DNA of 64,000 bases, taken from contig NZ_SLYB01000011.1 in the NCBI RefSeq assembly GCF_004340985.1, positions 4,335 through 68,334 on the forward strand. Direction: 5' to 3'. Both the position numbers and the translations under genes were made by a program. Of this stretch, positions 31,024 through 31,458 are shown piece after piece (positions within the stretch are counted from its first letter, which is position 1; every line of letters begins with the position of its first letter). The notes below the pieces were generated by a model that saw nothing but the letters and a program-made list of their open reading frames with translations, had not been told where the DNA came from and ran no database searches. This DNA is from Cricetibacter osteomyelitidis (GTDB lineage: Bacteria > Pseudomonadota > Gammaproteobacteria > Enterobacterales > Pasteurellaceae).

Positions 31024-31052
31024 TTGCATTTATAATTGAGAATTATTATCAT
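31024..31052 (+). promoter_or_regulatory. Fur-box promoter in the sfsA-arfA spacer
   Basis: TTGCAT (31024-31029), 17-bp spacer, TATCAT (31047-31052) make a sound sigma-70 promoter. TGAGAATTATTATCA (31037-31051) differs at only one position from the 7-1-7 Fur box TGATAAT-N-ATTATCA and covers the -10. Transcription should be shut off by Fe-Fur. The only thing downstream before the next terminator is a short non-coding stretch. Confidence 0.83.
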
Positions 31053-31057
31053 TAGCA

Positions 31058-31132
31058 GCATTCAAACAATAATAGATAATCACTCCAACTTTCAGACGGT
31101 TTTCCCCCACAAAGAGCCGTCTTTTCTTTTTT
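31058..31132 (+). ncRNA. Predicted Fur-repressed small RNA (HrrF/RyhB-like)
   Basis: About 75 nt from the predicted start near 31058 to the T-run at 31122-31132. The terminator stem AGACGG (31094-31099) pairs with CCGTCT (31117-31122), followed by TTTCTTTTTT, the kind of tail Hfq-bound sRNAs carry. The 5-prime part (CATTCAAACAATAATAGATAATC and on) is unstructured by eye, as expected for a pairing region. No ATG frame with a ribosome site lies between promoter and terminator. HrrF of Haemophilus influenzae and Fur-regulated sRNAs of Aggregatibacter are known; homology to these is likely but unchecked. Confidence 0.65.
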
Positions 31133-31167
31133 AACACATCATAAAATCCGCTACTTAATCAAATAGC

Positions 31168-31195
31168 TTGAAAGTTTACGTTTTTTATATAAAAT
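31168..31195 (+). promoter_or_regulatory. Predicted arfA promoter
   Basis: TTGAAA (31168-31173), 16-bp spacer, TAAAAT (31190-31195). It lies after the sRNA terminator, so arfA has its own start. Confidence 0.6.
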
Positions 31196-31233: not shown

Positions 31234-31458
31234 ATGGAAAAGAAAAAACAGGTTCAAACTGTGCAAAATACGCCGGTATATGAACACAATAAAGGTACAA
31301 TCCGCGATAATGCATTATTTGCACTGGTGCGGGATCCGCTGTTCCGACAACGCATTGAGAAAAAACTGAAAGGCAAAGGCAGTTATCAACGTAAAGCCAA
31401 ACACGCAAACAACTATTTTGAAAAGCCCGATTATCAACGTTCTGTGTTAGAATTTTAA
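31234..31458 (+). CDS. arfA: Alternative ribosome-rescue factor A
   Basis: A 74-residue basic protein. [37 protein letters not shown] (about 21-57) is the ArfA core: it enters the empty mRNA channel of stalled ribosomes and recruits RF2, backing up tmRNA. ATG 31234 follows AAAGGAAA. In several proteobacteria ArfA is made from mRNA lacking a stop codon, so that full-length protein is tagged and destroyed when tmRNA works. Here the last nine codons lie in a terminator hairpin (31426-31466), consistent with that strategy, although the stop codon still precedes the T-run. Confidence 0.92.

Follow-up and report, generated by a model that had tools for sequence, protein, structure and literature searches.

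A family-wide candidate small RNA gene of the Pasteurellaceae with Fur boxes at its promoter and complementarity to the nrfA and fdnG start regions

The window, a 64,000-nucleotide stretch of the Cricetibacter osteomyelitidis genome, contains between sfsA and arfA, with a GST-like gene also among the neighbors, a short segment (31024-31132) that comprises a -10 element with a Fur box lying over it, a predicted RNA of about 75 nt and an intrinsic terminator. The features of this locus are as follows.

31024-31029, + strand: -35 element TTGCAT, weak in this genome; most relatives have TTGACA or a near match
31037-31051, + strand: Fur box TGAGAATTATTATCA, over the -10; 0-2 mismatches in 84/84 homologous elements
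31047-31052, + strand: -10 element TATCAT, 17-nt spacer from TTGCAT
31059-31132, + strand: predicted sRNA, ~75 nt, 5′ end placed from the promoter; covariance model R1 matches 31059-31128 with 81.9 bits
31073-31089, + strand: conserved unpaired core UAGAUAAUCACUCCAAC, proposed seed 1; 31075-31087 complementary to the nrfA start region
31094-31122, + strand: terminator hairpin, stem 31094-31103 with 31113-31122; compensatory changes in relatives
31104-31112, + strand: terminator loop CCCCCACAA, proposed seed 2; complements nrfA in Actinobacillus-type genera
31123-31132, + strand: U-rich tail of the terminator, TTTCTTTTTT, as read from the sequence

The initial annotation had described a clean TTGCAT-17-TATCAT promoter overlapped by a Fur box with one mismatch, and an intrinsic terminator with a U-tail, with no coding frame between. 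This layout stands: the Fur box has one mismatch to the 7-1-7 consensus, the terminator and its tail are present, and the transcribed stretch holds only short mechanical open reading frames of 32-49 aa. The word "clean" does not fit the -35 element, which agrees with TTGACA at 3 of 6 positions, although the promoter is good in relatives, where five or six of these positions agree in 61 of 84 elements and TATCAT is present in 80. A simple promoter/terminator scan, with limits of 9 of 12 bases and a loop of at most 8 nt, lists neither the sRNA promoter nor its terminator; the terminator loop is 9 nt long. The 84 elements are distinct stretches that were picked for having the core and not for having a Fur box; the best Fur box 5′ of the core has two or fewer mismatches in all 84 (0, 1 and 2 mismatches in 14, 43 and 27 elements, respectively), compared to 0.8% of dinucleotide shuffles. 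At least two non-overlapping Fur boxes, each with three or fewer mismatches, occur in 63 of the 84, and the window has one. The locus combines the stand-alone promoter, intrinsic terminator and conserved structure of the Fur-regulated, Hfq-type sRNA class, and a U-rich tail is present in the sequence. Beyond the element, the 3′ coding end of arfA (31234-31458) is overlapped by a hairpin and T-run (AAGCCCGATTAT...ATAATCGGGTTTTTT); such an arrangement goes with arfA genes expressed from truncated mRNA.

The predicted RNA (31058-31136) folds solely into the terminator hairpin, at -11.3 kcal/mol compared to a shuffled mean of -4.1 kcal/mol (z -3.7), and none of 200 shuffles folds as stably. Counted over 48 distinct rows, on an alignment that was fitted to R1 and so leans towards structure, the eight pairs of the terminator stem are formed in 93.7% of cells as against 63.3% in shuffles, with 105 double-change cells as against 21.5 and a covariation score of 0.770 as against 0.220; in slid-register controls pairing falls to 37-58%. 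Two of the 48 rows are weak (18.1 and 17.0 bits) and probably chance matches, and R1 itself was built from a 23-row subset with its stem hand-written from the pairing counts. RNAalifold predicted no pairs on the raw 48-row MAFFT alignment because the stem arms are misaligned there. When the 84 elements were folded independently, 82 gave the same hairpin, the remaining two rows being clipped sequences. Two unpaired segments, the core UAGAUAAUCACUCCAAC and the loop CCCCCACA, are strongly conserved, and all 18 invariant columns of the 48-row alignment lie within core and loop.

Conservation beyond this genome, which the initial annotation had proposed to check by covariance search or alignment in other Pasteurellaceae, proved extensive: of the 140 family genomes R1 finds a match in 136, and of the 43 genera in 42. 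No match was obtained in G011, G145, G154 and G155; of these, G011, the sole member of its genus, has 3′ of sfsA a divergent copy scoring 30.9 bits (E 0.0012). There is one copy per genome, except for two in G020 and G085, and the source genome is matched once, at sfsA. An exact core-plus-loop pattern hits named genomes in 51 stretches, whose titles all point to the Pasteurellaceae or the Haemophilus group, among them Haemophilus influenzae, H. aegyptius, Aggregatibacter actinomycetemcomitans and Histophilus somni as well as Avibacterium, Rodentibacter and Gallibacterium. The RNA family is absent from Rfam 15 as searched, the window and the locus giving no sRNA match. Some relatives depart from the common layout. 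In Rodentibacter and H. seminalis (L042, L044, L054, L055, L058, L073) about 27 nt, possibly forming an extra 5′ hairpin, are inserted between promoter and core; the entire sRNA gene, Fur box included, is tandemly duplicated at L079 7487-7684 and L120 1548-1790 (Pasteurella bettyae, G020); and a Testudinibacter-type locus (L019 2340-2608) has three tandem units of ~80 nt, 83-97% alike, whose start lies within the 3′ portion of the sRNA gene and which look like degenerate extra terminator-like copies.

Of 30 sfsA loci fetched, 19 have the element 3′ of sfsA, nine of these with tyrS next, and at no fewer than 13 of 20 other loci the element directly precedes tyrS. Since both linkages occur, the order sfsA - sRNA - tyrS is probably ancestral, and the window keeps its sfsA side. 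The recurrence of tyrS might also suggest that the element serves the downstream gene as a Fur-controlled leader or attenuator and is not a trans-acting RNA. We regard this as very unlikely, as the gene that follows varies between genomes (it is arfA in the window), a promoter-like site of arfA's own lies in between (31168-31195), and the most conserved part of the element is unpaired sequence, with no alternative antiterminator fold predicted for the RNA 31058-31136.

Identity with RyhB was rejected, given that RF00057 matches none of the 140 family genomes, with a positive E. coli control, and gives no match at the locus at E up to 5. The element is like RyhB in the Fur box over its promoter and in being aimed, as predicted here from complementarity, at non-essential iron proteins, but it has a different core and is predicted to pair through its terminator loop as well. 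FsrA of Bacillus and other C-rich iron sRNAs, which are under Fur control, direct a C-rich unpaired seed at Shine-Dalgarno regions; the element resembles these by description only. The initial annotation had offered an HrrF homologue or a new RNA, and the HrrF part of this proposal falls. HrrF, a published Fur-regulated sRNA of Haemophilus, shares with the element its family, a Fur box and a similar size, at about 100 nt (PMC4144887; this paper and those cited below are drawn on in part). However, HrrF is located between pmbA and hpt (PMC4144887), and the source genome has a separate HrrF gene at exactly such a place (the PmbA gene being recognized by Pfam), with the conserved block GTAGAGTAGAAAGTAAATTCGTTAGGGT present, so that equating the two can practically be dismissed. 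The HrrF block (nt 29-64) is absent from the element, and the longest word common to the element and the pmbA-hpt spacer is 8 nt. The targets given for HrrF in the available text, modABC (down) and asnA, asnC and nrdB (up), are likewise not an iron-sparing set (PMC4144887). Finally, the HrrF block is found at 12 of 24 hpt loci, whereas the element is found in 42 of 43 genera.

The ribosome-binding site and start of nrfA, which encodes the pentaheme nitrite reductase, read TGGAGTGATTATC-GTG in the source genome, and 13 nt at this site are the exact complement of 31075-31087 in the 5′ core. Across the 2.73-Mb genome, the matches listed contain TGGAGTGATTATC in exact form at two places, one antisense to the sRNA gene and the other at the nrfA ribosome-binding site. 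We turned to nrfA first since nitrite reductase was the target that Stacy et al. predicted for an unnamed iron-induced sRNA (PMC5156373). The gene was found in 20 of 23 family genomes searched, and its site is perfectly complementary to the core over 13-14 nt in G000, G006, G015 and G018 (four genera) and complementary with one mismatch in G007, G014, G017 and G022 (four genera). At nrfA of some Actinobacillus-type genera the site is a perfect complement of the loop hairpin (11 nt in G001, 12 nt in G004 and 14 nt in G010), which points to the terminator loop as a second conserved pairing segment, one that the initial annotation had not foreseen. The site in G019 pairs with G-U, that in seven of the 20 genomes (G002, G003, G005, G009, G012, G016, G021) is weak, with 6-7 nt exact, and among the 20 genomes compared G011 has no complementary site. 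Inverted repeats such as GAGAAATATTTTC or GAGAAAAATTCTC lie 5′ of nrfA at several loci (L195, L196, L178, L181); their sequence is reminiscent of Fur boxes or of a hairpin in a 5′ leader.

Of 23 genomes from different genera, 15 carry the core complement GGAGUGAUU in the start region of fdnG (formate dehydrogenase-N) and eight have no site there; at the ribosome-binding site, GGAGTGATT is retained in 15 of the 23 genera between flanks that vary. A first target search of the source genome with a 17-nt pattern gave no start-region target, nrfA being missed by one mismatch. Scanning for core complements placed gene-start matches at fdnG (AAAGGAGTGATTATG), ccmD, ppc and rimO, gene starts accounting, with nrfA counted, for just 5 of the 49 contexts examined among the matches listed (100 of 111 near-matches); a reversed-pattern control, not matched for composition, gave 36 near-matches compared to 111. 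When duplexes were ranked over 722 start regions, which cover ~0.79 Mb of the 2.73-Mb genome (~30%) plus the window in stretches partly chosen to include candidates, nrfA ranked first (-22.1 kcal/mol) and fdnG fourth (-17.0 kcal/mol), against a mean of -6.2 and a standard deviation of 2.6 kcal/mol; rank 2 has a doubtful TTG start, rank 3 is a ppc-like gene and rank 6 a PhnA-like gene. These complementarities agree with the earlier proposals that the unpaired 5′ half is the pairing region and that the RNA is iron-sparing, of the RyhB type; conservation, stem covariation and Fur boxes lend comparative support to its being a Fur-controlled sRNA.

Other candidates vary in how widely they recur. 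The core complement at ccmD is confined to the source genome among 11 genomes with well-placed starts, another 11 rows being left aside as their starts fell on an internal codon, and loop-type complements occur at ccmD in G013 and G015. At rimO, an sRNA with GAUAAUC goes with GATTAT in the leader in 5 of 9 genomes and one with GGUAAUC goes with GATTACC in 6 of 12, the converse pairing being found in 0 of 9; the association (Fisher p 0.019) is among related genomes and so comes near to a single clade-level event. In one stretch of the source genome's contig C2 (L384 5651-10755, G000), several genes of an operon that we take to be hydrogenase-4/formate hydrogenlyase-like have GGGGG ribosome-binding sites complementing the sRNA loop, and four of the top 20 loop matches fall in this operon.

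Published expression data bear on both predicted main targets. In published arrays of Actinobacillus pleuropneumoniae both genes are strongly lowered under iron restriction: nrfA is reported at -10.48, formate dehydrogenase-N alpha at -5.68 and -5.40 and its beta subunit at -5.23, with frdA also lowered, at -9.20 (PMC1832192), and in Shewanella oneidensis RyhB destabilises nrfA mRNA (PMC5826389). A Fur-repressed sRNA could be real and its pairing with nrfA and fdnG incidental, the drop in low iron then coming about through FNR/HlyX, ArcA or direct action of Fur. HlyX/FNR and ArcA are indeed discussed by the authors (PMC1832192), as ArcA and HlyX are in PMC3091793; Fur-box-like inverted repeats precede several nrfA genes; and C-rich seeds resemble an anti-Shine-Dalgarno sequence, so that chance pairing is easier. 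Nevertheless, a Shine-Dalgarno match would account for no more than 4-5 of the 13 nt, almost every other start region sampled ranks below nrfA and fdnG, and all 18 of 758 start regions with 11 nt or more of complementarity belong to nrfA, fdnG or rimO, in a set whose loci were partly fetched for those three genes. We therefore consider incidental pairing improbable.

Whether the RNA has been detected before bears on priority and not on mechanism. Aggregatibacter genomes carry the element; a second sRNA of A. actinomycetemcomitans 624 is induced by iron restriction, bound by Fur and predicted to target nitrite reductase (PMC5156373); and JA02 is described in Aggregatibacter and P. multocida by Santana et al. 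(PMC4144887). The likeness of this second iron sRNA and of JA01-JA04 to the element is by description and not by sequence, and we judge the chances about even that the element is JA02 or that unnamed RNA. The available parts of PMC4144887, PMC5156373, PMC1832192, PMC3091793 and PMC5826389, and likewise of PMC4986893, PMC10204968, PMC4809551 and PMC10708910, describe no equal sRNA beside tyrS or sfsA; EvsRna13, which was considered, lies upstream of sfsA and differs as far as its description goes. In the fur RNA-Seq work on H. influenzae 86-028NP, HrrF is, in the text available, the sole Fur-regulated sRNA (Santana et al., PMC4144887). Other H. influenzae-group genomes carry the element, and either the ~70-nt RNA was missed in that work, or it was silent in the condition used, or the strain is without it.

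Taken together, genome comparison establishes a conserved gene with conserved structure, Fur boxes and complementarities, and the best reading is a new sRNA family of a known kind, acting like RyhB. Specifically, we consider it likely, with good confidence, that 31059-31132 is a stand-alone, Fur-repressed, trans-acting iron-sparing sRNA, found family-wide and silencing nrfA and fdnG first. In iron-replete cells of this organism, we infer, Fe-Fur would cover the -10 element; without iron the RNA would be transcribed, and its unpaired core, or in some genera its terminator loop, would pair at the Shine-Dalgarno region of mRNAs whose products are iron-rich but dispensable enzymes of anaerobic respiration, nrfA and fdnG foremost. 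Pairing would block translation and probably trigger decay, with Hfq perhaps required. A bolder reading, to which we give about equal credence and doubt, is that the Pasteurellaceae have in this RNA their main iron-sparing sRNA, that it is related to neither RyhB nor HrrF and has two alternative seeds, that nrfA has switched from the 5′ seed to the loop seed in one clade, and that the rimO leader tracks a base change in the 5′ seed; if so, co-evolution of an sRNA with its mRNAs would be visible across a family. The role of RyhB or other sRNAs in the Pasteurellaceae remained to be demonstrated, according to the authors of PMC3091793, and in the portions of the literature drawn on here no regulator of iron sparing had been shown for the family, the named Fur sRNA HrrF having mostly non-iron targets. 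The element would provide a concrete candidate, present across the family and with target sites that can be named, through which the loss of anaerobic nitrite and formate respiration in low iron may become explainable.
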